Shown: positions 8,249 to 24,302 of the stretch, in pieces
How the letters are laid out: each line of letters begins with the position of its first letter
Position numbering within the stretch: the first letter of the stretch is position 1
Virus record (IMG/VR): IMGVR_UViG_3300012001_000014
Location: 703 to 40,832 of that record
DNA from: a virus
Reading direction: 5' to 3' (one strand)
Length of the DNA stretch: 40,130 nucleotides
Program-made: the position numbers and the translations under genes
Notes under the pieces: model-generated
Seen by the model: only the letters and a program-made list of their open reading frames with translations
Told to the model about the DNA's origin: nothing
The model's database searches: none

Positions 8249-9654
8249 TGCTAGACAGACGTAAATTCAGGGGCTACCAAACCCAAATAGTTAACTACAT
8301 CATCCGACACAAGCGCTGTAGCGTTTTCTGTTTCATGGGCGCAGGAAAAACGGTATCAACCCTAACCGCCTTAGAGGATTTAAACTTACTCGAAGACGTT
8401 TTCCCCGCGTTAGTCCTAGCACCCTTGCGCGTTGCTAAAAGCACATGGCCTCAAGAAGTACGCGATTGGCCCCACTTAAAGCACTTGCGAGTCAGTCCTA
8501 TTGTCGGTAATGCCGCCAACCGCATAGGAGCTTGTAATACCAAGGCCGATATTTATACCTGTAATTATGATAACCTCGTCTGGTTGGTGGAATACTACGG
8601 CGAGCGCTGGCCTTTCGTTACCGTGGTAGCCGACGAGTCTACGCGGTTAAAGAACTTCAGGACTAGGCAGGGGGGTGTTCGTACTAAAGCTTTGGCTACC
8701 GTAGCTTTCTCAAAAATAAAGCGCTTTATTAACCTAACTGGAACGCCCGCGCCGAATGGTTTAATCGACTTATGGGGGCAGAATTATTTTATAGATGGGG
8801 GCCAACGCCTCGGTAGGACTTTTACGTCTTTTACTAGCCGATGGTTTCAGCGTGCTTTCAACGGCTTTGGGTCAGAACCCTTGGAGCATGCTCAGAAACA
8901 AATTGAAGACGTCCTGCATGACGTATGCCTGACCATTGACGCAAAGGACTGGTTCGATCTCAAAGAGCCTATCGTTTCTAACCGCTACGTAGACTTGCCG
9001 ATACGCGCTCGTCAGCTATACAAGGACATGGAAGACGAAATGTTCATGGAAGTTGAAGGCCACGAGATCGAAGTCTTCAACGCAGCCGCCAGAACCCAAA
9101 AGCTTTTGCAAGTTGCTTCTGGCGCAGTCTACGTGGACCCGCTTACCGAAAGCGATTTAGACCGCAAACACAGCAAGGAATGGAAAGTAGTGCATGACCT
9201 GAAGATGGAAGAGCTTGAGTCTATCATAGAAGAATCGGCGGGGATGCCCGTGCTGGTGGCCTACCATTTTAAATCCGATTTGGCTAGGCTACTTAAGCAT
9301 TTTAAAACCGCCAGACAGCTAGACGCTAGTTCGGCTACCATTGACGCTTGGAATAAGGGTAAGATACCAATCCTATTGGCCCATCCAGCGTCGGCCGGAC
9401 ATGGGCTTAACTTGCAACATGGTGGGAATATCATCGTGTTCTTCTCACATGACTGGTCATTAGAAAACAGGCTTCAGATACTAGAACGAATTGGCCCGGT
9501 AAGACAGCTTCAGTCTGGGTATGACAGGCCCGTATTCGTTTATAATATAATTGCACGCGATACCGCCGATGAAATGGTTATCGCGCGGGTGGAAGGTAAG
9601 CAGAGTATACAAGATATTTTCTTAAACGCAATGAAAGTTAGAGGGTTACTATAA
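8248..9654 (+). CDS. SNF2-type DEAD/DEAH-like helicase
   Basis: ATG 8248 overlaps the previous stop (TAATG) and has AAGGA upstream, so the longer open frame from 8182 is not used. The 468-residue protein has Walker A MGAGKT (K34), motif II DEST (129-132), motif III LTGTPAPN (163-170), motif V around AHPASAGHGLNLQ (about 380) and a motif VI of the form QILERIGPVRQ rather than the usual RxxRxGQ. This matches the phage SNF2 subfamily that moves on DNA using ATP. With the polymerase, VRR-NUC and SSB genes it forms the replication/recombination set. Confidence 0.9.
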   Translation: MLDRRKFRGYQTQIVNYIIRHKRCSVFCFMGAGKTVSTLTALEDLNLLEDVFPALVLAPLRVAKSTWPQEVRDWPHLKHLRVSPIVGNAANRIGACNTKADIYTCNYDNLVWLVEYYGERWPFVTVVADESTRLKNFRTRQGGVRTKALATVAFSKIKRFINLTGTPAPNGLIDLWGQNYFIDGGQRLGRTFTSFTSRWFQRAFNGFGSEPLEHAQKQIEDVLHDVCLTIDAKDWFDLKEPIVSNRYVDLPIRARQLYKDMEDEMFMEVEGHEIEVFNAAARTQKLLQVASGAVYVDPLTESDLDRKHSKEWKVVHDLKMEELESIIEESAGMPVLVAYHFKSDLARLLKHFKTARQLDASSATIDAWNKGKIPILLAHPASAGHGLNLQHGGNIIVFFSHDWSLENRLQILERIGPVRQLQSGYDRPVFVYNIIARDTADEMVIARVEGKQSIQDIFLNAMKVRGLL

Positions 9655-9845
9655 TGGCCGATGAATGCGATAACGCAAACGACGATTTAGAAAAGGCCTA
9701 TGATCGTGCCGCTAGGTACGTCAGAGAGCAGGTAAGGGATATGCCGATAGGCGAGGCAGGTGAATGCATACGCTGCGGTGAGGAAAGCCCTAGGCTGGTT
9801 AACGATGTATGCGCACGGTGTAGAGATAAATTTAAATTGCGTTAA
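9654..9845 (+). CDS. TraR/DksA-like zinc finger protein
   Basis: The ATG shares a base with the helicase stop (TAATG). The 63 residues begin MADECDNANDDLEKA and carry ECIRCGEESPRLVNDVCARC, giving ligands C38, C41, C53 and C56. The layout resembles the short TraR branch of DksA-type proteins, which bind the secondary channel of host RNA polymerase and change promoter choice. The N-terminal helix is short, as in TraR. It is the last gene before the promoter at 9852. A plain zinc ribbon remains the alternative. Confidence 0.65.
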   Translation: MADECDNANDDLEKAYDRAARYVREQVRDMPIGEAGECIRCGEESPRLVNDVCARCRDKFKLR

Positions 9846-9851
9846 AAGTAG

Positions 9852-9880
9852 TTGACATACGTTGTAGCACCTGCTATTGT
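9852..9880 (+). promoter_or_regulatory. Sigma70-like promoter with extended -10
   Basis: TTGACA (9852-9857), a 17-base spacer and TATTGT (9875-9880) preceded by TGC make a strong host-type promoter. It begins 7 bases after the TraR-like stop codon and 32 bases before ATG 9912, and probably drives the run of small genes to 11934. Confidence 0.75.
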
Positions 9881-9911
9881 CTAATCGTAAATTGAATCCA
9901 GGAGAAACAAA

Positions 9912-10220
9912 ATGGATAAATTCCGGATAGGTCAAAAGGTACGGATTATTAACAGTACTAGTTTTCCCCAAGTAATTGGGGAGGTAGTCGTTATTACCGC
10001 TGCTGCACAATGGTTCCATAATAAACGCTGTAGTTGGTATGGCTATGAGGTAGATTTACCCAAGGTGTGGCATCCTACCGAGGGCAGATACTTTGACTTC
10101 AGACCTAAAGAAAAATACCTTGAGCCAGTTTACGACGGCGATGAAAAGGGCTCTTGGGATGCACTGGCCGGTATCTGGTCGCCGCTTGTTATAGTTACGA
10201 AGGAGAAACAAAGTGGTTAA
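9912..10220 (+). CDS. Hypothetical protein with SH3-like N-terminus, 102 aa
   Basis: ATG 9912 has a CAGGAGA ribosome site and is the first gene after the 9852 promoter. The first 35 residues (FRIGQKVRI...QVIGEVVVITAA) have the alternating pattern of a small beta-barrel of SH3/KOW type. The remainder is rich in W, Y and charged residues. Function is unknown; it may bind nucleic acid or host protein. It overlaps the following GTG start by 8 bases. Confidence 0.55.
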   Translation: MDKFRIGQKVRIINSTSFPQVIGEVVVITAAAQWFHNKRCSWYGYEVDLPKVWHPTEGRYFDFRPKEKYLEPVYDGDEKGSWDALAGIWSPLVIVTKEKQSG

Positions 10221-11934: not shown

Positions 11935-12322
11935 TACCGTAGTGGCTAGCACCACCAACACGTACGCCGGCGTAGAACATATTAGCTTTTACTCTACTAA
12001 CCCCAGTCACTTCTAAGGCTTCGCGTAATACGCTATCGGCCATACTACGCGGTAGTACCCCCGTAGAGTACAGGTAATCGTGTATTACCCCCGGCTCTTG
12101 ACCCATATCACCTAACGCCAAGAACATAAAAGGTAAACGTGGTACTGAAGCTAGATCAGTAACGAAGCCAGCGGGTGCCGTAATGGTACCCTTAGCTACG
12201 TCGGATAGGTATGAGAAGTCGTGGAGTAACTGGTATAGCTGACGCCCATCACGGTTGCACAACGGGAAGCCCTTGACATCCCACATCAGCCGCATATCTA
12301 GCTGGCAGAGGAATTTGCTCAT
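11927..12322 (-). CDS. DUF1353 family protein
   Basis: The 131-residue product has the DUF1353 signature: FVTDLASVPR (about residues 54-63), the HDYLY stretch (about 81-85), and an R..AD..L..AL...GV...A..FY..VR.GG ending. The family is widespread in tailed phages near lysis and tail genes; its activity is not established, though the conserved D, H and Y residues suggest a catalytic or metal site. It is the last late gene. The start overlaps the lipoprotein stop by ATGA. Confidence 0.85.
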   Translation of the reverse strand: MSKFLCQLDMRLMWDVKGFPLCNRDGRQLYQLLHDFSYLSDVAKGTITAPAGFVTDLASVPRLPFMFLALGDMGQEPGVIHDYLYSTGVLPRSMADSVLREALEVTGVSRVKANMFYAGVRVGGASHYGTT

Positions 12323-12747
12323 GGTGCTTTAGGTGTTACCAGTTTGTCAACCCCGATACCAACCCCTGCGCCTAATGCTGCTGCGCCAAGTCCGGGCGCT
12401 ACTAGCGCGGGAGCAAGTGCGGGTAGTAAGGGGGCTAGTACTGCTGCCACAGCCGCTTTAGTAGCCTCAGTGACGGCGCTAGTGAAGGCTTCGGCTGCGA
12501 TTTTTTGACCAGCGAACGCGGCCACACCTTGCTCTTTCAAGTCTACGGTATAGTTATCGCCTTGCTTTGTGACATGGGCTTCAAGGTTAGCGATCTCTTT
12601 ACCGTTGCGCACATCCACAGCGCAGCATACGACTTGGCCGTTGCTATCGGTAAAAGGTTTGACGGAGTACGACGCATTACCCGCGTATTGCAGACTCGGG
12701 CAAGCGGTAAGTAATAATACTAGGGGTAATACTAAAAGTGCTTTCAT
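12319..12747 (-). CDS. Lipoprotein of the lysis region
   Basis: The first 16 residues form a lipoprotein signal (MKALLVLPLVLLLTAC) with lipobox LTAC and C16 as the lipidated residue. The middle (residues about 25-80) is beta-like with two adjacent cysteines (VVCCAV). The C-terminal third is a long Ala/Leu/Pro/Gly-rich hydrophobic stretch that could span a membrane. It could act as an outer-membrane partner in lysis, but at 142 residues with a hydrophobic C-terminus it does not look like a normal o-spanin. It is coupled by ATGA overlaps on both sides. Confidence 0.7.
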   Translation of the reverse strand: MKALLVLPLVLLLTACPSLQYAGNASYSVKPFTDSNGQVVCCAVDVRNGKEIANLEAHVTKQGDNYTVDLKEQGVAAFAGQKIAAEAFTSAVTEATKAAVAAVLAPLLPALAPALVAPGLGAAALGAGVGIGVDKLVTPKAP

Positions 12748-12911
12748 GGCTTATCTCCTTGGTTTAAATGGTAGACACCTAAGCCAACCAGCGCAAGCTG
12801 ACAGGCATTGATTAGGGGTTCTATTGGTGACAGGTTCAGGTATACCGCAGTAGTCCATACGGCTACGGCTGTGACGCCTACCGTTAATTTTACTATTAGT
12901 TGTACGTCCAT
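12744..12911 (-). CDS. Small two-segment membrane protein, candidate holin
   Basis: ATG 12911 is chosen: AAAGGA lies about 8-10 bases upstream, and it starts just after the previous stop, whereas the longer frame from 12935 overlaps that gene. The 55-residue product has two hydrophobic segments (about 4-24 and 34-50) and a short charged tail (NQGDKP), as in class II holins. Position between the endolysin block and the lipoprotein supports a lysis role; no sequence family is recognised. Confidence 0.55.
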   Translation of the reverse strand: MDVQLIVKLTVGVTAVAVWTTAVYLNLSPIEPLINACQLALVGLGVYHLNQGDKP

Positions 12912-12912
12912 T

Positions 12913-13386
12913 TTAGTTACATCCTTTCGGGTCAATATACTTGGTATATCCGCCTACCCAATCGGTTGTGAGGATAGCCCCAGCTTGGTCAATGGTAAGG
13001 GTTTTATCCGTACAGATTAAGTGGTGTAGCTTTACTTCTAATAAATCTTTCTGGTGGGCATTGCACGGTCCTTCGTACGATTGTATCTGAAGGTTGCCGA
13101 TAACGTCAGCGCCACCGCCCGTCAAGGCCCATACGTGGTCTACTTCATCGCATACATTGCTAGGCCCAGTACATTCAGGTGAGTGCCTAGGAGTCACCCC
13201 GGCTGCGGCGTAGACTGCTTTCTTTGTAGCTTCTGAGGTATGCCTTACCAGCTTCGTGCTAGTGGTGCATAGCTCTTGCATACCTACCGTACGACTTACG
13301 CTGTCGGCTTTGGCATAGTTTATGCATACGCCATCCCATACCAAAAAGCCAATAAAAACTGCGATTGTAATCTTATGCGATTTCAT
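12913..13386 (-). CDS. Secreted HNH-like nuclease family protein
   Basis: The N-terminus (residues 1-28) has a hydrophobic core and an AKA-type cleavage site, so the protein is probably exported. The mature part contains EVDHVWALTGGGADVIGNLQ (D83, H84, N98), then GPCNAHQKD (H111) and a C-terminal helix with DW. This is the pattern of bacterial secreted HNH-fold proteins (E-x-DH-x-PL-x-GG...NL...A..KD.LE). Six or more cysteines suggest disulfides. It could digest DNA in the periplasm or after lysis. It overlaps the endolysin gene by 4 bases and so is expressed with it. Confidence 0.65.
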   Translation of the reverse strand: MKSHKITIAVFIGFLVWDGVCINYAKADSVSRTVGMQELCTTSTKLVRHTSEATKKAVYAAAGVTPRHSPECTGPSNVCDEVDHVWALTGGGADVIGNLQIQSYEGPCNAHQKDLLEVKLHHLICTDKTLTIDQAGAILTTDWVGGYTKYIDPKGCN

Positions 13387-13925
13387 ATAGTTACCCTATT
13401 TAATAACCAACCAAAGATAAATTCTTCGTTCTTCTGGTACTTCTCCACTAGCTCAATGTAGTGTGTACCTTGCAAGCAGTTCATAGCCCTTAGTAGTACC
13501 AGTTCGCCGTTGGTGTTGTGAGTCTTCAGGTAAGTACTAAGCGCTAGGATTGAAGCGGGGCCTATGATACCGTCCAGCGCCATATTCGGATGACCCTGCA
13601 CGATGTTGTTCAGTGAATTAAGTGCACGTTGGAATACCTTCGTCGCCGTACCTTGACCGCAATTTACGCCGGTGTCAATTAATTCTGCCCCGATACGTTC
13701 GTTAATATTGTAGACCAAGTGAAAATTCCAGTCTAGCACGTACTGTTTAGTGTAGATCATTACCGCGATAGCGCGAGGCATATCCTTCATCGCGCCAAGG
13801 TAGCCATAGTGTCTGGCCGTCGAGAGCGTGATACCGAAGTTTGTTTCGCCGCCCGAGTCGTTAGGGTTATTAGAATAACCCCCTTCTGTCGTTATCACCT
13901 TATCAATGATACCGGCTAGGCTCAT
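13383..13925 (-). CDS. GH108 family endolysin (peptidoglycan hydrolase)
   Basis: The 180-residue protein begins with ITTEGGYSNNPNDSGGETNFG, the GH108 signature with catalytic E14 in EGGY. The C-terminal part (about 95-180, with DGIIGPASILALSTY) matches the PG_binding_3-type domain usually fused to it. Family members cleave peptidoglycan glycan strands. There is no signal peptide, so release through a holin is expected. The start overlaps the upstream membrane-protein gene by ATGA and the stop overlaps the HNH gene. Confidence 0.92.
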   Translation of the reverse strand: MSLAGIIDKVITTEGGYSNNPNDSGGETNFGITLSTARHYGYLGAMKDMPRAIAVMIYTKQYVLDWNFHLVYNINERIGAELIDTGVNCGQGTATKVFQRALNSLNNIVQGHPNMALDGIIGPASILALSTYLKTHNTNGELVLLRAMNCLQGTHYIELVEKYQKNEEFIFGWLLNRVTI

Positions 13926-14239
13926 GGCTGTTCACCTGTTAGAGTCGCTTTCCTGCGTACTGAGTAATTATCGGAACGTATAGGCGCGTGGTTATACGCC
14001 CGCAGGTCATCACGTATATCCCTTAGAGTCTGATTGGTTACTGTCATTTGCTGCTCTTGACGGGCTAGCCGTTCGGGTAATAAGCTTAATACCGTTTGTT
14101 GTTCTTCGAGTACCTTCAGGCGCTCGTCAGCCTTTGCTGTGTAGGAGGCAATCCACCACACAATACCGAACATTTGTATTACTATTACCCACAGTAAACC
14201 TGTAGAAATTCGGTATGTCAGTGTTGATTCACTCGCCAT
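13922..14239 (-). CDS. Membrane protein with coiled coil; spanin- or holin-like
   Basis: There is one N-terminal membrane segment (residues about 12-32, LLWVIVIQMFGIVWWIASY) followed by a long charged helix with heptad spacing (about 35-80: ERLKVLEEQQTVLSLLPERLARQEQQM). This layout fits an inner-membrane spanin or a phage membrane protein placed before the endolysin. The short C-terminus is basic. It overlaps the endolysin start, supporting a lysis role. No family is assigned. Confidence 0.55.
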   Translation of the reverse strand: MASESTLTYRISTGLLWVIVIQMFGIVWWIASYTAKADERLKVLEEQQTVLSLLPERLARQEQQMTVTNQTLRDIRDDLRAYNHAPIRSDNYSVRRKATLTGEQP

Positions 14240-14260: not shown

Positions 14261-14629
14261 TTATACGGTACCTTTCAAGGCCCACATTTGATCTAACTGG
14301 TCATCTGAAATACCCAGAGCTAAAGCTGCTGCGGCAAGTACTGGGTCTAGACGTTCGTAATCTGCTGCGCATTCCCAAGCGTCCTTGTTCTCTTGGGTTG
14401 AGGTAGCGATAAAGGCTTCTACTGCTGCACGAAGGCCAACCTTAGTGAGGATTTTGCGAACATCCCATTTGGATAGCGTTGGAATTGAAGCTCGCTTTAA
14501 AATTTCGTTAAATACCCATTCGCTATTAATATATTCATGAAACTCATCTGGCCTTTCTATAACATCTATATCATTTGGGGATATTTTGTCGCCAACGTAA
14601 TAACCAATATTTTCATTGATATATGGCAT
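14261..14629 (-). CDS. Putative tail fibre assembly protein
   Basis: The 122-residue acidic protein follows directly after the fibre gene (TAATG-type overlap at 14629). The C-terminal half (KVGLRAAVEAFIATSTQENKDAWECAADYERLDP) resembles phage tail fibre chaperone-like proteins with a helical D-x-W core. The 5' part of the gene (about 14480-14629) is markedly AT-rich compared with its surroundings, suggesting exchange together with the receptor-binding fibre. The assignment rests on position and general similarity. Confidence 0.5.
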   Translation of the reverse strand: MPYINENIGYYVGDKISPNDIDVIERPDEFHEYINSEWVFNEILKRASIPTLSKWDVRKILTKVGLRAAVEAFIATSTQENKDAWECAADYERLDPVLAAAALALGISDDQLDQMWALKGTV

Positions 14630-16059
14630 TATAAGTTCCTTTTAGCTGTGATTTTGTATTTCCAATCGGCAGCAGTCAATGTACAAAAACCTCCAGTAGA
14701 TGCATTGGCGACAAGGTATCCGCTATTGGAGCCTCGTCTATTAATAACAGTATTTTTCAACTTCAGTATGGATGGATTGTATGGGATGTTTGTAGCAGAA
14801 GTTTGCGGATTATCTAACATATCTCCAATAGAATAACCCTGTTCTGCGGTAGTGCATTGGATTGTTTCCGTAATAGTAACTTCTTGCGTGCCCATATTAT
14901 GATTTTTTGTGTAAGCTGCCGTCGCTGCTATCAGCGTTGCTGTATAGCCAGAATCATACTGTCCAGCATAAGCCCGTACACGAATCGCTGAAATATTGGC
15001 CGCACCGCAATCAACCTCTGCAACAATAATTCTGTTACTTTGAACTGCCGTTGCACCATTACCTAAATACATGATGTGATTAAGGTAATCGTAGGTGTAT
15101 TGATTATTTGTGATAGGAATCGTGCCACCATACTGGAATGCATCTGCAACTATGACAAAACCAGCAGTATCAGCTACGGTGTCATACCAGATATAGTTAG
15201 TCTGTGATACCGTCAAGCCAGCAACGGTTAAATCGGTCGAACGTACTTTATTCAGATTTCTCTGTGAACCATCAGTATTAAAGCCATTTCCTACCGTTGC
15301 CATAAATGCAGATGTTGAACCTTTTAACGTACAGCCAGTGGCAGCAGATGTGCCAATTTGCGACTGTGGAATCAGGTCAGCAATACCAGTTGCAGTTACA
15401 GGGCCATATACTACGCATTGACGGACAGGTACATCAGTTCTAACTGCTGGGGTTAATGGATTAAGTAAGATTACATCCGTACCGTCATACCAGTTATCAG
15501 TGACTTGATTAATTAATGCTTGGGCTGAGGTGACAAATTGCTTATTGCCTGAAGCATCGTAATATTTCCAGTTCTTAGCACCTAATGCGTTCCAATTCAT
15601 AGTCGGTGAACCAGTAGGCGTGGCATTTAACGTTAAGGCTAGTCTAACATTAGTGTAAGTAGTCAGTGCTGGCGAGGCTGTAACCGTATAGGCTGACGAT
15701 GTTCCTCCAGTGGTATATGCCGTATATGTTTGATTAGCTAGGCTAGACTTATTTACACCTTGTAGATTTGATAGGGAAACACCAGCATCAATAACATCGG
15801 ATAAATTGTTAGCGGGTAATAAACCGCTAGCGCCTTGTTGAGCGAATAAAGCCCAAAGCCCAGCGGCCAGATCAGTTGCGAAAGACGCCCCAGCTATGTT
15901 ATTTACTAGGCATACGTACGTAGAACCGCCATAGGACACCAGATTATTAATAACGTAGTCCACTGTACCCGTAATCCATGCGCCGCGCCAAGACCAACCG
16001 AGTATTGTCGGTGGAACTGGCGGGGTAGTAGCGTTACCGTTGCGGTCAGTCTGGCTCAT
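14629..16059 (-). CDS. Tail fibre / receptor-binding protein
   Basis: The 476-residue protein starts with AAGGACAC upstream of ATG 16059. Residues about 20-75 (WSWRGAWITGTVDYVINNLV, then a YVCL and GLWALFAQQG stretch) resemble the small aromatic carbohydrate-binding repeat found in phage fibres. Residues about 78-110 (GLLPANNLSDVIDAGVSLSN) are a typical fibre linker. The remainder is Thr/Ser/Asn-rich and beta-like, with no catalytic signature. It is probably a second receptor-binding fibre, separate from the spike at the right edge, with the following gene as its chaperone. Confidence 0.7.
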   Translation of the reverse strand: MSQTDRNGNATTPPVPPTILGWSWRGAWITGTVDYVINNLVSYGGSTYVCLVNNIAGASFATDLAAGLWALFAQQGASGLLPANNLSDVIDAGVSLSNLQGVNKSSLANQTYTAYTTGGTSSAYTVTASPALTTYTNVRLALTLNATPTGSPTMNWNALGAKNWKYYDASGNKQFVTSAQALINQVTDNWYDGTDVILLNPLTPAVRTDVPVRQCVVYGPVTATGIADLIPQSQIGTSAATGCTLKGSTSAFMATVGNGFNTDGSQRNLNKVRSTDLTVAGLTVSQTNYIWYDTVADTAGFVIVADAFQYGGTIPITNNQYTYDYLNHIMYLGNGATAVQSNRIIVAEVDCGAANISAIRVRAYAGQYDSGYTATLIAATAAYTKNHNMGTQEVTITETIQCTTAEQGYSIGDMLDNPQTSATNIPYNPSILKLKNTVINRRGSNSGYLVANASTGGFCTLTAADWKYKITAKRNL

Positions 16060-16107: not shown

Positions 16108-19100
16108 CTACTGTTGCTTATCGCCATGGCCTTTGACAAACCCTTCGGCAAAATCCCAAGCGTCTTGTGGATGCTCGTAGCCTGTCTGCACGTTCCGAAG
16201 GTATTGGATAGAAGCACCTGCTTGACCTAACCCCGGTATATGCGTGAAAGTACCTAAAGCGTCGGCGGTATCACGGATGCCCGTGTGCACGTCACGCTCT
16301 TGTGCAACCTTAACTGCGTCGATAATAGGTTTGGTTAAAGACGATAAAGCTGATTCTATGCCGAGAAGACCAGCACCACGGTAGCCTTGAACCATTTTCC
16401 AAGCGTCACGAATACCGGGTAGGATACCTGCTACTTCATCGGCCGCAGCCTTTGCCATCCACCATAACGGGCCGTGCTTGTCGTTCATCGGGTTACCTTC
16501 GATCAAATATGCCGTCATAAAAGCGGGCACCATCACGGCCATAAAGCCCTTGCCTAGCGCTTCTGGTTTTGAGTAGCCTTGCGTTTTCAATTCGTCGAAC
16601 ATATTAGCCGTTTGGCCGTAAGTGTTATTCATGAAGCCATAAAGCGTGGTCATCATCTTAATTGCTTCGTTGCGTTCATTCATAATCAACGAACGTGCTG
16701 TTTCAATCTGTGCGCCGTGCGCTTCGCGTACTACTTTATTGGCGTAGTTAACTGCCTCTTGCTCTGACATTGGCTTACCCGTACCACCCTTATTGACCGG
16801 TAGCCCTTCGGTAATACCCCGATTGTAAGCGGCCCATGCTGTCGGTACGGCAGTCATGAAGTCCGTAGCTGCAACACCCGCATGTCCAAAGCGATGGGCC
16901 TTATCCATGAATGACTCAGGTTCAAACATGGACTGCGAGAGTTCTTTGTAATCACGGTCCTGTTGCATCCAGCGTGCCGCGAGTTCAGGGAACTTGGCGA
17001 TACCATCCTGAGCTTGCTTGATCGGTGAAGTAGCCATATCCCGTACGGCGGCGGCTAGGTATTTTTCAGACCCTACAAAGTAGCCAGTAGTCTTCAACCC
17101 GGCGGCGCTACTATGTTTTAGTATGGTCATGACACGGAAACCAATACCATTGATTACCAACCCCGTACGTGTGTACGACATGGCCTTGGAGAAGGCTTGT
17201 GCGCCCCGTTCCTGCGCGGCTGAGTTGGCCGCGTTGCCTAACCATTGGCGCATACCCGTATAGGCTTCTGGCCCGTAGGTCAACTGAAACTGGTTCCTGA
17301 AGTCTGGGTGTTCTATGATCTTGTGCACGTCTATTATAGCCTCGCGGTATGACAGGTCGTGTATTGATTCCTGCATGGTCTTGGCTATATTCGTATAATC
17401 AAGGTCTACACGATCAGTGTAGCTAGCTAGCCGATTATTCAGTGAGCCATTGGTCGTTACATCGTTGCGGAAGTAATTAGGACCAAATAAGCCCTCCGTT
17501 TGCCCAGAGGCTATAACTTGGCCTTGTTTATTACCAAGTTTTGAGCGTAATGGGTCGTATTTTATAGGCGCATAGCCGCCCTTCATTTCACCGAACTGGG
17601 TGTTGAATGGGCGTGGTTCTATCTTATTTGGTTGAATGTTACCAAGCCTATCTGTCATAGCCTGTATTTCAGGGTAATCGGCGTCGAACTTATCCCAGAT
17701 AGTTTGAACTGCTGACCAGTCTTTTTCAGCCATGTGTTCGTGCAGTAGCTTGGAAACATTAGCCGGTTCCCAATTCCAACCTTTGGTAAGCTTGCTAAAA
17801 TTAGACTCGTTACCTACGTGCAATGCGATACCAATTAACTGCTTGCGAGTCAAGTCCATCATTTTGTTACCGAGATCGGGGTCTTGCAGGTACTTATTGT
17901 CAATCTTATCGTGCATACTTTCTTGCCAGTCTTTACCCAACCGTTCCCCTTCGGCTTCAAAGAACTTGGATAAAGCTTTTTGACGGCTCATTTTGGTATA
18001 AGTGGCATTGAACATGCGATCATAAACATACCTACCGAATGGGCCGAATAGCTCATGCATGTCGTATTGGTTACGTTTGTATTCTTCAGGCTTCATTTCG
18101 ACCAGAAGGCTATGAAACCATGATTTCATCTTTTCAAACGTAACTTTGGCTTTACTATCAAAACGATCAGAAGGTTTTATCAATATCTCTTCAGGCGTGT
18201 ACTTAGATCCACGTGCTAGTAATTTTGGTAGAAATTTCGTTTTAACAACGGCGTCTACGTCTTCACGCTTGCCATTTACCGTAATCGTTTTAAGTTGTTG
18301 GCCTATCTTTTCCATCGAGCGTATTGAGTCTACTACACCACGGAACTCTTCTACCGTAAGCTTCTGGTAAGACTGGGGGCGACCTTCATTCAGAACGGCG
18401 TCGGATAAGGCGGGTGAATAACCCCCCTCGGCCATAGCGGTTGCCCAAGTCTTAAGCGCAACCTTCTCGGCTGAAGGCTGCATGGTAGGGTTCTTACGCA
18501 AGTCGAAGCGATCTATCGTTGATAGTATCTGGTCACGTACTTCAGGGTCCATCTTAAGTAGTACATCGCGCTTGTCGAAGCGCAATAGGTACTGGCGGCC
18601 CTTGTTGATATCGTCGGTAGCATCCATCGCTGCACGCGAAAGGCGATTGTTCAGTAATGCTGCGCGTTGCTGCTCTACCGCACCGCTAGGGTCTTTAGGC
18701 GCTAGCTTAAGCGCTTCTTTATTCGCTCTGGCTTCTGCGGCTGCGTACTGTGCTGGCCGCAAGTCTTCAATCACCTTACTGCTAATCGCGGTATTGGCTG
18801 CCTCTTTTGCCGCCGCGTTAATCTCACGCACTGGAACTGCGGATTTAGTAAGTATCTTAAGACCCGTTGCCATGAACTTAGCGCGAGCTTCGTTATGGAT
18901 AGCTACATCAGCGGCACGCGCGATGGAATTCTTATCGGACAATTCGCTATGCTGCTCAAGCATACGCTGATCGGTCATACCTTCGATCATATCCTTGCGG
19001 CTACCCTCGGCTTCGATAGCCTTATGCATATCGGCGCCATTCTGGTAGCCGAACTGCTCGGCAATTAAATCCTCGTCGGTACCCTTTCCCGCAGCCTTGA

Positions 19101-22100
19101 GCGCTTTTTTAGCTAGCTGGGCTGGCCTAGTATCAACCTCGGCGGTAATTTCAGCCTCAGCATCGCGCCGTTGAGTATTAGCCTCCCGTTGTAATGCCCG
19201 AAGCGCTTTGCTCTTGGCATTGCTCAACCACTTCATATCGCGCATTGACCTAGCTTGCATGGTACCGATAGCGTCTTGAGTTGCCTGATCGCCCTGCTCG
19301 GCGTAGGCTTTCCAAGTAGCTTCGTCTACGCCGTCTGGTTTGGTATCGAACAATTTTTTGTAACCGTTAAGGTCTTCAGCGCGTTTGATAGCCTCTTCGC
19401 TAGCAAACATACGATCAAAAACCTGACGTACTTCTGGCGCGATATCGGCAGGAGCGAGGTCTTTGTAGACATTCATCATCCAGGCCTTAACACGGCTGAA
19501 GACGCCTTGTAATTCTACCGAGGGGGCTTTACCTTCTAGAAAGTATTTTTCTAACCCCTCGGCAAACTGCTCATGCACAGCACGTTTGTTTTCAAAGTCT
19601 GAGTTATTCCAGCTATTTAAACGCGCTTCTGGGGTATCGCCGTTAACACCAAACTTTTCTAAAAGGGTGTCAAGGTCTTTGCGGGTAGCTTCTGACGCAC
19701 CCTCACGGCTGGCGAGAAAGTTCTTTAGTTCTAAGAAATGATGTCCAAGCTCATGGATGAACGTAGACAGATCGGCGCGGCGTGTTAATCCGATTGTGGC
19801 TGTTTCGGGATTATAGGTGCCTCGTTGGTCTTGGCCGTAGGTTCCTCGTCCGGCTTGTTCAACCCCGCCAGTAGCATCGGCCCCAGCCTCGCGCGGTATA
19901 ATTCGATCTGCTTCATTACCTCGGGAGGTATGGGCGAAGCCTTTTGCAACGGCTTCGCTAATGTTGCCTTTTTCATATTCACCTTTCAATGCTGACAGAA
20001 GAGTCTCTTCTAAGTCCTGTTTATCATTATACGCGTATTTATTAGCATCTGCTACACTTATTTCTTTGGCGTTACCTTTACCGAAGCTATTATCCAGTAC
20101 CGTTACCTTTACTCGTGGGTCGTCTTTATAGTCTTCGGCTATGCGCTGTACGGTATCGGCAGAACCAATATGCGTTGAAGCATGAGCTTCAATAGGCACC
20201 GTGCGTCCAGTACCGAAGTTGCGCTCTTGTTTCATAGCTCGGGGCAATGCGCCATTGACAAGCGCGTCTACTGCATGCCGTACAGTCAGTATGATATCCA
20301 CGGTTTTCCCAGCATCAAGCGCTTGTTCGACTTTGGCTTTTGAGCTGTCGTAGGTACTCATGTTGGTATCGTAAACTATCTGGGCTCCCCCCACAGCTTC
20401 AGGCATAGCTTTCAACAACGCGCTGGTTTTACCCGCGCCTGTACCCCCCGCCGTGAAGAGTACCGTAGGTAACTCACCCTCTTTCGGTGCCTCTTGCAGT
20501 TTTGCTGCGTATAAGTCCTTTACGAACTGGCTAGCTGGTCCATGCACTGCGGCCGATAGCGAACGGTCTTTCAAATAGTGTGGTGATAATTCACGCGCTA
20601 CGTCGGTATTGATAATCTTGCCGCCAAGTGCATCTGGCCGTGTGTTGTACTCGGCTACGGCTTTACTAAAATCTTGCAGTTTACCCGTAAGTGCCCTACC
20701 TATATCCTCAGAGTTTAAACCTTTTGGCGTTTGTTGGTTGTAGCTACGATCACCACCGAGTACGCTCTGCACGTCGAATGGCTTAAGAGCGAATAGCTCG
20801 GAAGCTTTCATGCCTTCTTTGGCCGCTTCATTCACGTAAGCCGCCGTTGCGATCTTGGCGTAAGTACTACTTACGTCATTCCGGTACATGCTGGTTTCTT
20901 TTATCTTTTGCAGAATGGTATTTTCTACCAGCTTATTATCCGCGCTAGAAGCCTCGTCCTTAGAAGCTGACTGAATTATCCTGTCGGCTGTCTCACTCAT
21001 CGTTTGTTGCTGCTTAGACTTTTCGTCGAGCATTTGCGCGTATGTCAACCCGTCTGGTGAAGTCTTGAGGTCGTTGATAATAGACTTCTCGGCTGGGTCG
21101 CCAGCCAAGTGGGTAGCGTAATCGGCAATAGAAATTTTTACGTCACCATTAGTACCAAGCGCTTCAGGTAACTGGCGCGCTACGTCTGGCATTTTCTGAT
21201 TTAATACCGCGTCGCTCCAACCTGCCTGATCTAATGACTCAGCAAGCTTCTTAGCGGGTACATAGACTTCGCTGGTGCCGTCCTCGGTCATCTTAGCTAC
21301 AAACTGGTTGAAGGCTTCAGGGGAATTCTTGCGTAGCTCACTAGCCTGAGCCAAGGCCGAAATATCCATCATAGACTCATGGCCTTGCTGAGCTTGTTCG
21401 ATTTTACTAGTTAGGGCTGCGTGATCTTGCACGGCGTTTTGGTACTCAGAGTAGTCGTGAGGGTTATGACCCATACCAACGCTCAAGAAGGCATTGGTTA
21501 AGCCTCCTACTACGTCAGCCGTTGGACTCCAAGGTTGTTGGTCTTCACTGGTAAGGTTATGCGCTGCCCGTTGCGCTTCAGTTAACGCTACTCCCGTAGG
21601 GATACCCGTCAGCCCCCTAGTTAAGACGCTACCTTGTGAGCCAATCGGCATGGATAGGGTCAATAGCGTAGACAGCATTTCTTTAGTCGCTTCTTTAGAA
21701 GCTAACCCCGCGTCACCCGTTTTAGCATAGACATCAGAGTACGTATTAGTCGCACTATCCGCTATTGGCAGCCAAGCCGCTTTTGAAGTATTACCAAAGG
21801 TATTAGCTAGGATGGTAGAGATTTTAGCAGACACCTCACCCGCTTTAGCTGGGATACTTGCGGGGCCAGTAGTGACCATTTCACCGAGCATTACCGCGGT
21901 ATTACCGAGGGCCTGAGCCACTTGATTGCCTAGAGGGGCATCACCTGTAAGCGTAAGGCGCTGTATATCAGCATTAAGCCCTGCTGTCACTGCTTGCCGC
22001 TGACTAGCGGGAGTTAGGTACCCTAGGGTATTTTCCCCAAACTTTGTAAGATTCTTCTGCCCGATAGCGATACCCGATAAGGCTGACGAACCTAGGCTTT

Positions 22101-22566
22101 TAATATCATCCCAAGCGTCCGAGGGGTTAGCCAAAGCTCTCGCCGGATAGCTGGCTAGCATGCCTACCGCTTTTTCGATACTGCCTAATACGTTGGCGTC
22201 TTTCCAGCCTACATCGGCGTTAGCCTGATCTGTCAACCAAGCTCCCGTTTTGGGAGAATTTGCCGTAATGGTATCTGCGTTGTTTTGTTGCAACGTAGCG
22301 TCTGTCTGCGCGCGGTTAACGTCGACAATCGAACCTTTGTCTACATTTAAAGCGCGTGCTGCATTCTGACGTTTGGCTTCTACGGTAGGGTCAGTCAAAG
22401 ACGCACGGTACAATGCTGCGTGAAGCGCATCGGTAGTTGCCCTCGGTGCTGCTTTAGCCATAGCATCAAAGTCATCTACAGGCGCAGCGGGGGGAGCTAC
22501 AGGCGCAGCGGGTACATGTGTAAGCCCCGCTTCTTTAGCCATTGCATCGAAATCATCAGTAGCCAT
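16108..22566 (-). CDS. Giant polyvalent ejection protein: zeta-like kinase plus zincin
   Basis: The 2152-residue protein is the largest in the window and the last of the internal virion block, the place of T7 gp16. The N-terminus repeats DDFDAMAK twice (about 4-11 and 31-38). A P-loop GGTGAGKTS (K713) in a zeta-toxin-like kinase context follows. Next is a metallopeptidase: HELGHHFLE at 938-946, with a second acidic motif HEQFAEGLEKYF at 998-1009 and a conserved PS..L...F...K.WM...Y tail. Long helical segments fill 1100-1700. The C-terminal 450 residues (with GFRVMTILKHSSAAGLKTTG) match regions of phage large polyvalent proteins. No lysozyme motif is seen. It is presumably injected with the DNA. 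Confidence 0.8.
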   Translation of the reverse strand: MATDDFDAMAKEAGLTHVPAAPVAPPAAPVDDFDAMAKAAPRATTDALHAALYRASLTDPTVEAKRQNAARALNVDKGSIVDVNRAQTDATLQQNNADTITANSPKTGAWLTDQANADVGWKDANVLGSIEKAVGMLASYPARALANPSDAWDDIKSLGSSALSGIAIGQKNLTKFGENTLGYLTPASQRQAVTAGLNADIQRLTLTGDAPLGNQVAQALGNTAVMLGEMVTTGPASIPAKAGEVSAKISTILANTFGNTSKAAWLPIADSATNTYSDVYAKTGDAGLASKEATKEMLSTLLTLSMPIGSQGSVLTRGLTGIPTGVALTEAQRAAHNLTSEDQQPWSPTADVVGGLTNAFLSVGMGHNPHDYSEYQNAVQDHAALTSKIEQAQQGHESMMDISALAQASELRKNSPEAFNQFVAKMTEDGTSEVYVPAKKLAESLDQAGWSDAVLNQKMPDVARQLPEALGTNGDVKISIADYATHLAGDPAEKSIINDLKTSPDGLTYAQMLDEKSKQQQTMSETADRIIQSASKDEASSADNKLVENTILQKIKETSMYRNDVSSTYAKIATAAYVNEAAKEGMKASELFALKPFDVQSVLGGDRSYNQQTPKGLNSEDIGRALTGKLQDFSKAVAEYNTRPDALGGKIINTDVARELSPHYLKDRSLSAAVHGPASQFVKDLYAAKLQEAPKEGELPTVLFTAGGTGAGKTSALLKAMPEAVGGAQIVYDTNMSTYDSSKAKVEQALDAGKTVDIILTVRHAVDALVNGALPRAMKQERNFGTGRTVPIEAHASTHIGSADTVQRIAEDYKDDPRVKVTVLDNSFGKGNAKEISVADANKYAYNDKQDLEETLLSALKGEYEKGNISEAVAKGFAHTSRGNEADRIIPREAGADATGGVEQAGRGTYGQDQRGTYNPETATIGLTRRADLSTFIHELGHHFLELKNFLASREGASEATRKDLDTLLEKFGVNGDTPEARLNSWNNSDFENKRAVHEQFAEGLEKYFLEGKAPSVELQGVFSRVKAWMMNVYKDLAPADIAPEVRQVFDRMFASEEAIKRAEDLNGYKKLFDTKPDGVDEATWKAYAEQGDQATQDAIGTMQARSMRDMKWLSNAKSKALRALQREANTQRRDAEAEITAEVDTRPAQLAKKALKAAGKGTDEDLIAEQFGYQNGADMHKAIEAEGSRKDMIEGMTDQRMLEQHSELSDKNSIARAADVAIHNEARAKFMATGLKILTKSAVPVREINAAAKEAANTAISSKVIEDLRPAQYAAAEARANKEALKLAPKDPSGAVEQQRAALLNNRLSRAAMDATDDINKGRQYLLRFDKRDVLLKMDPEVRDQILSTIDRFDLRKNPTMQPSAEKVALKTWATAMAEGGYSPALSDAVLNEGRPQSYQKLTVEEFRGVVDSIRSMEKIGQQLKTITVNGKREDVDAVVKTKFLPKLLARGSKYTPEEILIKPSDRFDSKAKVTFEKMKSWFHSLLVEMKPEEYKRNQYDMHELFGPFGRYVYDRMFNATYTKMSRQKALSKFFEAEGERLGKDWQESMHDKIDNKYLQDPDLGNKMMDLTRKQLIGIALHVGNESNFSKLTKGWNWEPANVSKLLHEHMAEKDWSAVQTIWDKFDADYPEIQAMTDRLGNIQPNKIEPRPFNTQFGEMKGGYAPIKYDPLRSKLGNKQGQVIASGQTEGLFGPNYFRNDVTTNGSLNNRLASYTDRVDLDYTNIAKTMQESIHDLSYREAIIDVHKIIEHPDFRNQFQLTYGPEAYTGMRQWLGNAANSAAQERGAQAFSKAMSYTRTGLVINGIGFRVMTILKHSSAAGLKTTGYFVGSEKYLAAAVRDMATSPIKQAQDGIAKFPELAARWMQQDRDYKELSQSMFEPESFMDKAHRFGHAGVAATDFMTAVPTAWAAYNRGITEGLPVNKGGTGKPMSEQEAVNYANKVVREAHGAQIETARSLIMNERNEAIKMMTTLYGFMNNTYGQTANMFDELKTQGYSKPEALGKGFMAVMVPAFMTAYLIEGNPMNDKHGPLWWMAKAAADEVAGILPGIRDAWKMVQGYRGAGLLGIESALSSLTKPIIDAVKVAQERDVHTGIRDTADALGTFTHIPGLGQAGASIQYLRNVQTGYEHPQDAWDFAEGFVKGHGDKQQ

Positions 22567-24302
22567 TATTGTCCTTGAAGTGTTTGTGAAAGGGCGCGTT
22601 TACGCCATGCAGTCTGAACCTGCGCGTCAGTCAAAGGTTTACCATTTATTTTGCTGGATGAGGTTTGTAGTTTTTGAACCCAATCGCTTGGGGGTCCTTG
22701 GTAAGCTGGCGCAGGGCTTGGCGCGTACCAGTGGTTTTCACCATACGTTGTATTAGCACTGGCCGCAATAGCCCGTTGGTCATCTGGTGTTGGTGCCTTG
22801 CCCGGATGCTGTGCTTGCCAGTCCATGAGTGATGACTTAACGAAACCTTTGAAGGCGTCGTTATTAGCCTCCGTGATGTTCTTTTTAAGACCCGCGGGCT
22901 TGGCCGCTTCTAGGATATCATCGTCCAGTTCCAATGGTTTTTGTTGCTTGACAACGGTATCGAATTCGTCGATGACTTTAGCTGTTAGCGCTGGGCCGAT
23001 AGTAGGGCCGTATTTTCCCCATATCTCGGCATGGGATTTAGTCGCCAGAGTTGGGTCCGTAATCGCGCCGTAGAAAGAGGCCCTAGCTTGAGGTGTTTTG
23101 TACTTTGCAGCTTCGGCACGGTTGGCGTCTTCATCTTTCCAGTTTTGCATTTCGTGCGCATGCGACGTTTGTGACCATGCAAATTGTTTTTGACTTTGCC
23201 CGAACTGCACATCCTGACGATTCTGCATTATGTCTTGCCGTTCGTCAGTTCCCATGTAGTCGTAAACTTTAGACTGTTGCATCGGTGTTAAACTTTGGAA
23301 TTGTTGTGAACCTAGTACAGCGGCTTTGGCTGCTACAGGGTTACCACTCTGGTGGTACAGCATAAGTACACTACCTTCGGCTTGCGCTTGCGCTTTGTCA
23401 TTGGCCTGTTCTAGGTTATTAAAAATAGCCTTAGCTGCATTGTATGCACCGGGTGTGGTAGCGCTTTTAGTAAGCGTCAATTCCACTTCGGTCAATGGTT
23501 TACCAGAAGCTATCATCGACTGGGCTTGTACGGCAAGCTTCTGCCCTTCAGCAAAGTCATTCGCAGGTTTTAATCTATCCGCAAATGCTTGTTTTTGCTG
23601 ATCGGTGAGTAGATTCCCCGCAGCTGCGAAAGTGGCGTTGGCCGAAGCGGTATCGTTATTAGCTAGCTCATGCGTCAGTATCTTAGAATAAAAGTCACTG
23701 CGTAATGCCGCAAGCCCTTGGCTAAGCATATCGGGGTCACTGACCCCCAGCCGCACCATTTCCTTGGCATAGGTGTCTTCTAAACTCAGCATGGACTGGG
23801 CCACGACGTCGGGTTGTGTGTAACTGGCCATAGCGGTGGCTTCTATCGCCCCCAGCCGATCGATATAGACTTGGCCTCGGAATCTGTATGCTTCACCCAT
23901 AGCGTAGCTTATACGCCCGGCGTCGAAGGCTACCGCGCGTCGTGCGGCTATCTGCTGGAATTGTGCTTTTTGGGCTGGTGTAGCTAGGCTATCAGTAATG
24001 CTCTGCACACTGCCTTTGTACTGATCCTGCGAATTCTGGTTAAAGTCTGTCATCAGAACGCCACCACCTTTTATACCGCTATACTCAGTCTTGAGGTCTA
24101 GCTCTTTTTGCATTAACTGCGTTTCAGCGTCAGTCGTTTTTAGCTGGTCGAGCTTGGCTGTTTCCTGCGCGGCCATTTGCGATATCTGTTGGCCTTGTGA
24201 TATCTGCGCTGCGTCTACCGCGTCGGGGGTATAAGAAGCCACACCGCTGCTAGGCTGTGGCGTTACCCGTTGGAGTTCGTCTGGGTTAGGAAGTAGAGCC
24301 AT
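22566..24302 (-). CDS. Internal virion (ejection) protein, gp15-like position
   Basis: The 578-residue protein is almost wholly helical and rich in Ala and Gln, without membrane segments or enzyme motifs. It lies between the gp14-like gene and the giant polyvalent gene, the order seen for T7 internal virion proteins gp14-gp15-gp16. It is expected to be part of the inner core or the channel that crosses the periplasm on infection. Its TAA shares a base with the next ATG. Homology to T7 gp15 itself cannot be claimed by eye. Confidence 0.65.
   Translation of the reverse strand: MALLPNPDELQRVTPQPSSGVASYTPDAVDAAQISQGQQISQMAAQETAKLDQLKTTDAETQLMQKELDLKTEYSGIKGGGVLMTDFNQNSQDQYKGSVQSITDSLATPAQKAQFQQIAARRAVAFDAGRISYAMGEAYRFRGQVYIDRLGAIEATAMASYTQPDVVAQSMLSLEDTYAKEMVRLGVSDPDMLSQGLAALRSDFYSKILTHELANNDTASANATFAAAGNLLTDQQKQAFADRLKPANDFAEGQKLAVQAQSMIASGKPLTEVELTLTKSATTPGAYNAAKAIFNNLEQANDKAQAQAEGSVLMLYHQSGNPVAAKAAVLGSQQFQSLTPMQQSKVYDYMGTDERQDIMQNRQDVQFGQSQKQFAWSQTSHAHEMQNWKDEDANRAEAAKYKTPQARASFYGAITDPTLATKSHAEIWGKYGPTIGPALTAKVIDEFDTVVKQQKPLELDDDILEAAKPAGLKKNITEANNDAFKGFVKSSLMDWQAQHPGKAPTPDDQRAIAASANTTYGENHWYAPSPAPAYQGPPSDWVQKLQTSSSKINGKPLTDAQVQTAWRKRALSQTLQGQ

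Follow-up and report, generated by a model that had tools for sequence, protein, structure and literature searches.

The stretch of viral DNA analyzed here (the window: 40,130 nucleotides, positions 703 to 40,832 of record IMGVR_UViG_3300012001_000014, a 47-kb virus contig) carries on its minus strand a compact block of six genes that reads, in transcription order, as a spanin-like protein with a transmembrane segment and coil, a GH108 endolysin, an HNH-type protein, a small transmembrane protein, a lipoprotein and a DUF1353 protein. Its features are listed below, where L and G numbers are our handles for loci and whole records, A2 is an alignment of the window protein with 33 relatives (34 rows) and A7, the larger alignment, holds 120 viral and bacterial sequences.

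13922..14239, minus strand: spanin-like protein with an N-terminal transmembrane segment and a coiled-coil-like region; weak PHROG matches to Rz-like spanins (best E 7e-4) and a weak L005 homolog (E 2e-4)
13383..13925, minus strand: endolysin, GH108 plus PG_binding_3 (Pfam 5.9e-19 and 4.7e-15; phrog_315 endolysin)
12913..13386, minus strand: HNH protein, predicted to be secreted; open reading frame of 157 residues with an ATG start, family alignments A2 and A7, beta-beta-alpha models, viral and bacterial relatives
13306..13386, minus strand: its signal-peptide-like segment, residues 1-27, from hydropathy and an A-K-A motif; cleavage after A27 is an estimate
13135..13146, minus strand: E81-V82-D83-H84, strand 1 of the HNH core; none of E81, D83 and H84 varies across the 34 A2 rows; predicted strand 80-84
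13090..13095, minus strand: N98-L99, strand 2; invariant in the alignments; predicted strand 99-103
13036..13050, minus strand: K113-D114-x-x-E117, core helix; K113 and E117 invariant and D114 conserved in at least 90% (120 rows); predicted helix 110-127
12744..12911, minus strand: holin candidate (unproven), 55 residues with two hydrophobic segments by hydropathy; L128 and L016 have counterparts in the equivalent position, 27% and 24% identical
12319..12747, minus strand: lipoprotein with a C-terminal hydrophobic segment; 62-63% identical to those of L016 and L005, and 73% over 82 residues to that of L128
11927..12322, minus strand: DUF1353 protein, final gene of the block (Pfam 4.5e-22; L005 homolog)

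At four of the five junctions the genes overlap by 4 bases, as the HNH start codon does with the GH108 endolysin stop, an overlap that the first-pass annotation had already reported; at the fifth, a 1-base gap separates the HNH stop codon from the ATG of the small transmembrane gene. The HNH gene thus lies inside a contiguous lysis block, as its initial assignment to the lysis region implied. That it sits between the endolysin and a candidate holin is right as to place, but the start listed for the latter gene, TTG at 12935, is more likely the ATG at 12911, and none of the family libraries searched names the 55-residue product as a holin. The lipoprotein has a second hydrophobic region at residue 100, and its shape may be u-spanin-like. 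The whole block is found downstream of packaging and structural genes on the same strand (terminase, head-tail adaptor, major head protein, tail and internal virion proteins). Scans for promoter-like sites gave 7 against a shuffle mean of 7.9, nothing above shuffles, and scans for terminator-like sites gave 0 against 4.2 in shuffles.

Three further genes of the window deserve mention. Positions 16108-22566 encode a polyvalent late protein of 2152 residues that lies among the virion genes and combines a Zeta_toxin-like domain (E 9.5e-9) with a sub-cut-off LPD22 match and a match to phrog_9880 (function unknown); positions 22566-24302, likewise among the virion genes, encode a 578-residue protein that matches phrog_10475 'endolysin' (E 1.4e-9) and is perhaps a second, virion-borne wall hydrolase; and positions 14629-16059, transcribed ahead of the lysis block, encode a tail-fibre-like protein that matches CBM_5_12 weakly and below the cut-off (E 0.0012).

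Residues 1-27 of the HNH protein have the shape of a signal peptide, in agreement with the first reading of the sequence: a basic n-region, a hydrophobic stretch with a mean hydropathy of 2.9 and A-K-A ahead of D28. A hydrophobic N-terminal segment is present in 78 of the 80 distinct viral cores of the family, the window included (L180 and L194 fail the test), versus 173 of 821 other open reading frames at the same loci, a comparison in which the family was scored over the whole stretch ahead of the core and the control frames over their first 60 residues; 69 of 80 bacterial members also pass. In keeping with disulfides, two cysteines, C40 and C125, are invariant in the 34 rows of A2 and at least 90% conserved in the 120 sequences. 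Another pair, C108 and C156, is complete in 6, reduced to one cysteine in 15 and missing from 57 of the 78 cores scored, by a count with a loose window in which seven of the 15 single cases (L149, L150, L153, L155, L158, L162 and L164) are not clean tests because a cysteine lies just ahead of the scoring window and another in the tail. L135/L136 have both cysteines of this pair, and the closely related L134 has neither. The pair marked out a clade with support of 94/85 in a first tree; this clade was lost in a larger one and was dropped, though the two cysteines still co-occur.

The beta-beta-alpha metal fold, whose absence from a structure prediction had been named as a refutation, is predicted with confidence. 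AlphaFold2 models reach a pLDDT of 80 for the full-length protein (34 sequences) and a pLDDT of 86.6 with a pTM of 0.80 for the mature part (120 sequences); the former places strands at 80-84 and 99-103 and a helix at 110-127, with pLDDT of 86-96 across the block, and the latter repeats the same order, the core arrangement of the HNH, or beta-beta-alpha-metal, nuclease superfamily. The motifs that had first suggested an HNH-type core (C-D-E-V-D-H, N-L and A-H-x-K-D) are all present, but the histidine of the last is not conserved in the family, being E in L005 and V in L016. Conservation instead falls on E81, D83, H84, N98, K113, D114 and E117, kept in the window protein and all 33 of its A2 relatives, and on D83, H84, N98, L99, K113, E117 and W143, invariant in the 120 viral and bacterial sequences and including the His, Asp and Asn expected of HNH nucleases; because these residues are invariant across both sets, the core motif is more than chance. 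By analogy with HNH enzymes in general, H84 is the putative general base and D83 a putative metal ligand. Values of dN/dS are 0.03-0.27 in 12 of 15 pairs of relatives, the other three being saturated, which points to purifying selection in the relatives as judged from their codons; family conservation and these ratios together led us to reject a chance open reading frame at 12913-13386. The window protein itself sits on a long branch in the tree and is without the TPG and WP motifs of most relatives.

Profile searches for HNH families, also proposed initially, gave a divided answer: no Pfam or NCBIfam family names the window protein, and PHROGs return a weak HNH match (E 8e-4). Pfam PF01844 (HNH) does not match it at E <= 1 and matches 28 of the 34 A2 rows at E <= 0.1 (best 0.0027), and 15 of the 34 touch Endonuclea_NS_2 at the same cut-off (best 2.3e-5). 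The best structure match in BFVD is an 'HNHc' protein of an uncultured phage (E 2e-10, TM 0.80). Matches to solved structures in the PDB are weak (best Z 4.8 by VIA-align, Foldseek E 0.15), which weighs against a lysis nuclease; they are mostly HNH-type nucleases (ranks 1-15 of 24 in one search, 10 of 11 in another), with Cas8f-HNH, Rhs2-CT, McrA, Gme HNH and colicins E9 and E7 among them, where Rhs2-CT, like Cap5, is presumably an HNH-type nuclease. The closest solved fold is the Cas8f-HNH domain of Type I-F HNH Cascade (Z 4.8, rmsd 3.2 over 79 residues; profile E 0.005), a cytoplasmic CRISPR effector domain that shares the HNH core and little else with the window protein; a Z score of this size may reflect a common arrangement.

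Successive viral scans returned 2, 35, 10 and 97 relatives, 80 of the last 97 being kept, and with L003, L037 and L042 left out as repeats the family comprises 116 IMG/VR loci (the window and L128 included) with 80 distinct cores, that is, 79 besides the window. One pattern run over 84,980 bacterial and archaeal genomes gave 159 bacterial relatives, of which 80 were kept, with carriers that include Pseudomonadota, Deinococcota, Acidobacteriota, Gemmatimonadota, Actinomycetota, Chloroflexota and Patescibacteria-type lineages. In the Patescibacteria-type carriers (L073, L079, L094, L098, L105, L106, L107, L116, L124 and L126) one may speculate that the protein serves nucleotide scavenging from outside DNA. 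The initial statement that lysis cassettes normally contain no such enzyme fits GenBank to the extent that five different family members used as queries gave 0 matches in 50,697 phage records, but not IMG/VR, where the combination recurs; the GenBank search works, since the window's GH108 endolysin has 519 matches in the same records. Two features of the distribution weigh against a role in lysis: L004, L139 and L205, which branch closest to the window protein in the larger tree, are outside recognized lysis cassettes, and many large-phage members lie near genes that by eye look like ribonucleotide reductase, terminase or YkuD. At five large-phage loci (L178, L183, L186, L190 and L200) the secreted HNH adjoins a secreted YkuD-like (L,D-transpeptidase) gene, by Pfam in L186 (1e-18) and by eye in the rest. 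At L002 (1394-3946) a terminase-like reading frame has, from its translation only, an apparent Hint/intein-like insertion.

We then placed six wall-hydrolase families in whole viral records, 42 of them for PF05838 and 38 for the others, and found PF05838 in 5 of 42 and, of 38 each, phrog_90 in 2, PF08291 in 2 (1 over the cut-off), PF07486 in 7, PF00959 in 6 and PF01510 in 1. The gap between HNH and hydrolase in the 18 records with a match is below 1 kb in 11 (G031 by a sub-cut-off match), 1.8-2.5 kb in four, and 4.5, 14 and 34 kb in the remaining three. The HNH gene lies closer to wall hydrolases than under random placement (Fisher p 3e-4 for 11 records, one per apparent lineage; 1.2e-3 for the 10 that remain when the window is left out). 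These values carry some selection bias, as the families are curated yet were partly picked after the neighbors had been viewed. The test omitted G031, a 463-kb contig whose hydrolase match is below the cut-off, and six near-relatives (G006, G009, G011, G038, G039 and G041), of which G009 (1.8 kb) and G038 (2.2 kb) are unfavorable; the 24 of 42 records that had no hydrolase match went unscored, G005, G007, G010 and G019 of these having been searched with PF05838 only. A local scan detected a hydrolase in 21 of 80 loci, 20 within 2.4 kb and 16 within 1 kb, and its linkage p values (7e-7 with 15 loci, 5e-6 with the 14 other than the window) overstate the linkage because the hydrolase seeds were taken largely from genes beside the HNH. 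The same scan detected no hydrolase at the other 59 loci, a further point against the lysis-nuclease reading.

By our own grouping, 15 phage groups, with fewer independent gains than that, carry the HNH about 1 kb or less from a wall hydrolase, of eight families in all, or a holin: the window, L128, L001, L005, L016, L006/L012, L044-L046, L149/L150/L158, L155, L162, L164, L151, L165, L147 and L027. Family libraries support a GH108 endolysin (window, L044-L046), a phrog_90 endolysin (L001, L005), M15_3 (L016), M15_4 (L128), Muramidase (L151), Phage_lysozyme2 (L165), Phage_lysozyme (L147, L164), Hydrolase_2 (G006, G011, G033) and GTA_holin_3TM (L027) within this distance, while the lysis context of L149, L150, L158, L155 and L162 comes from the local scan; M15_3 and M15_4 we take to be related to each other. 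Kinship also runs between groups, the HNH proteins of L149 and L162 being 83% and those of L151 and L165 81% identical. On the larger tree a lysis label set by hand on 16 rows needs 9 changes, at least 4 of them forced by well-supported branches (6 changes, at least 5 forced, in the first tree with the label likewise hand-set on 10 rows), and one supported clade (99/98) unites L149, L162, L128, L155 and L164, all in a lysis context and with hydrolases of GH108, M15_3, M15_4 and GH24 types. Together these data indicate that the gene recurs beside lysis genes in independent phages, a result to be read with the selection bias noted above.

The block is conserved, with parts that can be exchanged. 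The lipoprotein is common to the window, L005, L016 and L128, with 62-73% identity over the matched part, and DUF1353 to the window and L005, with a DUF1353-like gene recognized by eye at that place in L128. The endolysins of these phages differ: GH108 in the window, a degenerate GH108 with a phrog_90-type enzyme in L005, M15_3 in L016 and M15_4 in L128. It is important to note that L128, which from its early genes would be a Mu-like phage, was retrieved by a scan with the lipoprotein only, independently of the HNH, and that the HNH was found at the same place. In L016, a patatin-like phospholipase (9138-9941; Pfam 1.1e-28) follows the lipoprotein where the window has DUF1353. Searches of 50,697 phage and 72,556 plasmid records gave no match to the lipoprotein, and a second scan with it yielded nine IMG/VR loci, five of them new. 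A secreted HNH stands beside or near the block in six of the nine (L127, L128, L129, L134, L135 and L136), where L127 and L129 are contigs of L005 and L016 and their HNH was known beforehand; L132 and L133 carry another HNH, which brings loci with an HNH gene beside or near to eight of nine, and L130 carries none. These rows amount to fewer independent cases because L132 shows no difference from L133 across 10 kb, and L135 agrees with L136 at 97% identity across 7.1 kb. In L134 about 0.9 kb separates the HNH from the small transmembrane gene, and an extra reading frame precedes the lipoprotein.

Comparison of L132/L133 with L135/L136 reveals a gene-for-gene replacement. The slot between endolysin and membrane gene holds the secreted HNH in L134 and L135/L136 and a 114-residue HNH of another type in L132/L133, and the DNA flanking it in the two pairs is 84-90% identical on both sides, similarity ending 12 bases past the endolysin stop codon and returning some 15 bases short of the slot gene's end. 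The replacing gene (L132:5448-5792) is assigned to HNH by its motifs (CxxC, VHH and NCHLFFGH) rather than by family search; its product has no BLASTP similarity to the secreted HNH that could be detected (E 8) and, by hydropathy, no hydrophobic, export-like N-terminus. The L132 state looks derived, because L132 retains the opening bases of the frame that encodes the secreted HNH. A scan with the replacing HNH gave 24 loci (L208-L231) and a single match in the 50,697 phage records. Among 16 loci whose neighbors were inspected by eye, L210, L211 and L215 show the same sort of lysis block (in L215 a transmembrane-coil gene, the HNH with a 4-base overlap, a lysozyme-like gene and an Rz-like gene), L212, L213, L214 and L216 have it adjoining small membrane genes or a DUF1353-like gene, and the other nine have no lysis gene recognized by eye. 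Two unrelated HNH types therefore use the same slot. The lack of an export-like N-terminus in the replacer counts against the reading of a secreted lysis nuclease, since either export is not essential there or the replacer has another job. Such an exchange between modules this closely related nevertheless suggests that nuclease activity itself is under selection at this position.

In light of these results, we consider it an even call that the window protein is a secreted HNH nuclease and a working part of the phage lysis module, cutting unpackaged DNA at or after lysis. We infer late expression, since the gene, linked to the endolysin, comes where the structural genes end, and translation would be coupled as well. 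The protein would be exported by the Sec route before lysis and its disulfides would form outside the cytoplasm, so that replicating phage DNA in the cytoplasm would be spared. Around or after lysis it would cut DNA outside capsids, that is, the host chromosome and unpackaged phage DNA, while packaged genomes would stay protected by the capsid; the benefit would be the freeing of virions from a DNA gel and the removal of competing or transformable DNA. The unsecreted replacer would reach the same DNA once holin and endolysin open the cell. A broader proposal is more tentative, and we hold it with some doubt: in many tailed phages that infect uncultivated bacteria, a dedicated lysis nuclease would be a regular, exchangeable part of the lysis module alongside endolysin, holin and spanin, either a Sec-exported, disulfide-bonded HNH or an unsecreted NCHLFFGH-type HNH released with the endolysin, and would destroy unpackaged DNA at lysis.

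A nuclease with a signal-peptide shape and cysteine pairs would also suit a different task, waiting in the periplasm to cut the entering DNA of a second phage, and the large-phage genes that lie outside recognized lysis genes, some beside envelope enzymes (YkuD, Hydrolase_2), fit such superinfection exclusion. We judge it rather unlikely: the window gene is joined to the endolysin where the structural genes end, which would make it late, and the substitution of an unsecreted HNH in closely related modules speaks mildly against any role that needs the periplasm before lysis. DNA cutting at lysis suits both gene types better than a periplasmic guard, a reading that is most plausible for the large-phage members. 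In streptococcal prophages the spd genes lie near lysis genes. Spd1 and Spd3 are secreted DNases encoded by Streptococcus pyogenes prophages, as an excerpt of PMC4710455 describes, and like the window HNH they are phage-encoded and secreted, but they are lysogen-borne in a Gram-positive host. They lend some weight, as does the presence of the family in many bacterial genomes, to the view that the window gene is cargo (a moron), a secreted DNase carried among late genes that aids the lysogen or local population through use of extracellular DNA or competition; that view is improbable for a gene inside an overlapping block, with neighbors shared by four different phages (window, L005, L016 and L128), in a family that adjoins hydrolases of eight families. 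Nor do we give much credence to an HNH fold without DNase use (inactive, structural or inhibitory) or to an RNase: the long branch and missing TPG and WP motifs would allow it, but every family-invariant core residue is kept and the relatives appear to be under purifying selection.

HNH genes next to endolysins, as in the window, have been described in T1-like lysis cassettes of Drexlerviridae, where the part of PMC13164509 on these genes presents them as homing nucleases of sporadic occurrence and says nothing of export; homing genes are further described, in an excerpt of PMC10448857, as clustering near terminase and ribonucleotide reductase genes, as several family members seem to by eye, and the replacing HNH could itself be one. 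A homing-type gene that settles at module boundaries is nevertheless the least probable of these readings for the window, since homing requires action in the cytoplasm while 78 of 80 cores have an export-like N-terminus, and no extra DNA-targeting domain is apparent in 157 residues, a single domain of about 130; we rejected it as the main reading. HNH nuclease bacteriocins (colicins E9 and E7, pyocin AP41) are DNases released by cell lysis; their proteins include domains for receptor binding and translocation, and each is paired with an immunity gene. The DNase domains of colicins E9 and E7 match the fold of the window protein weakly (Z 2.4 and 2.2) and pyocin AP41 matches by profile at E 0.63; the window protein is a single domain, with no receptor or translocation domain and no immunity gene among the adjoining endolysin, small transmembrane, lipoprotein and DUF1353 genes, and a bacteriocin was rejected.

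Our literature search found no description of a secreted HNH in lysis cassettes. Phage-encoded secreted DNases and HNH genes near lysis genes are already known, and what is new here is a recurrent, exchangeable HNH of the lysis module. According to section 4.4 of a review (PMC9145820), there are no reports of phages actively degrading extracellular DNA, and whether they release DNases at the end of infection is discussed there; the secreted HNH family offers concrete, testable genes for that question. If the lysis-nuclease reading is true, a DNA-clearing step would be added to the scheme of holin, endolysin and spanin, with consequences for burst release, biofilm DNA, transformation and post-lysis gene transfer, and the recurrence of the gene in various uncultivated phages suggests that DNA cutting may be an overlooked part of cell bursting. 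Two 'HNHc domain containing' proteins of uncultured Caudovirales, A0A6J5L196 and A0A6J5KMW5, are listed by domain name only, with no role or lysis context; they have the same predicted fold over nearly their whole length at 40% and 24% identity, respectively, and are probably members or near relatives of the secreted HNH family.
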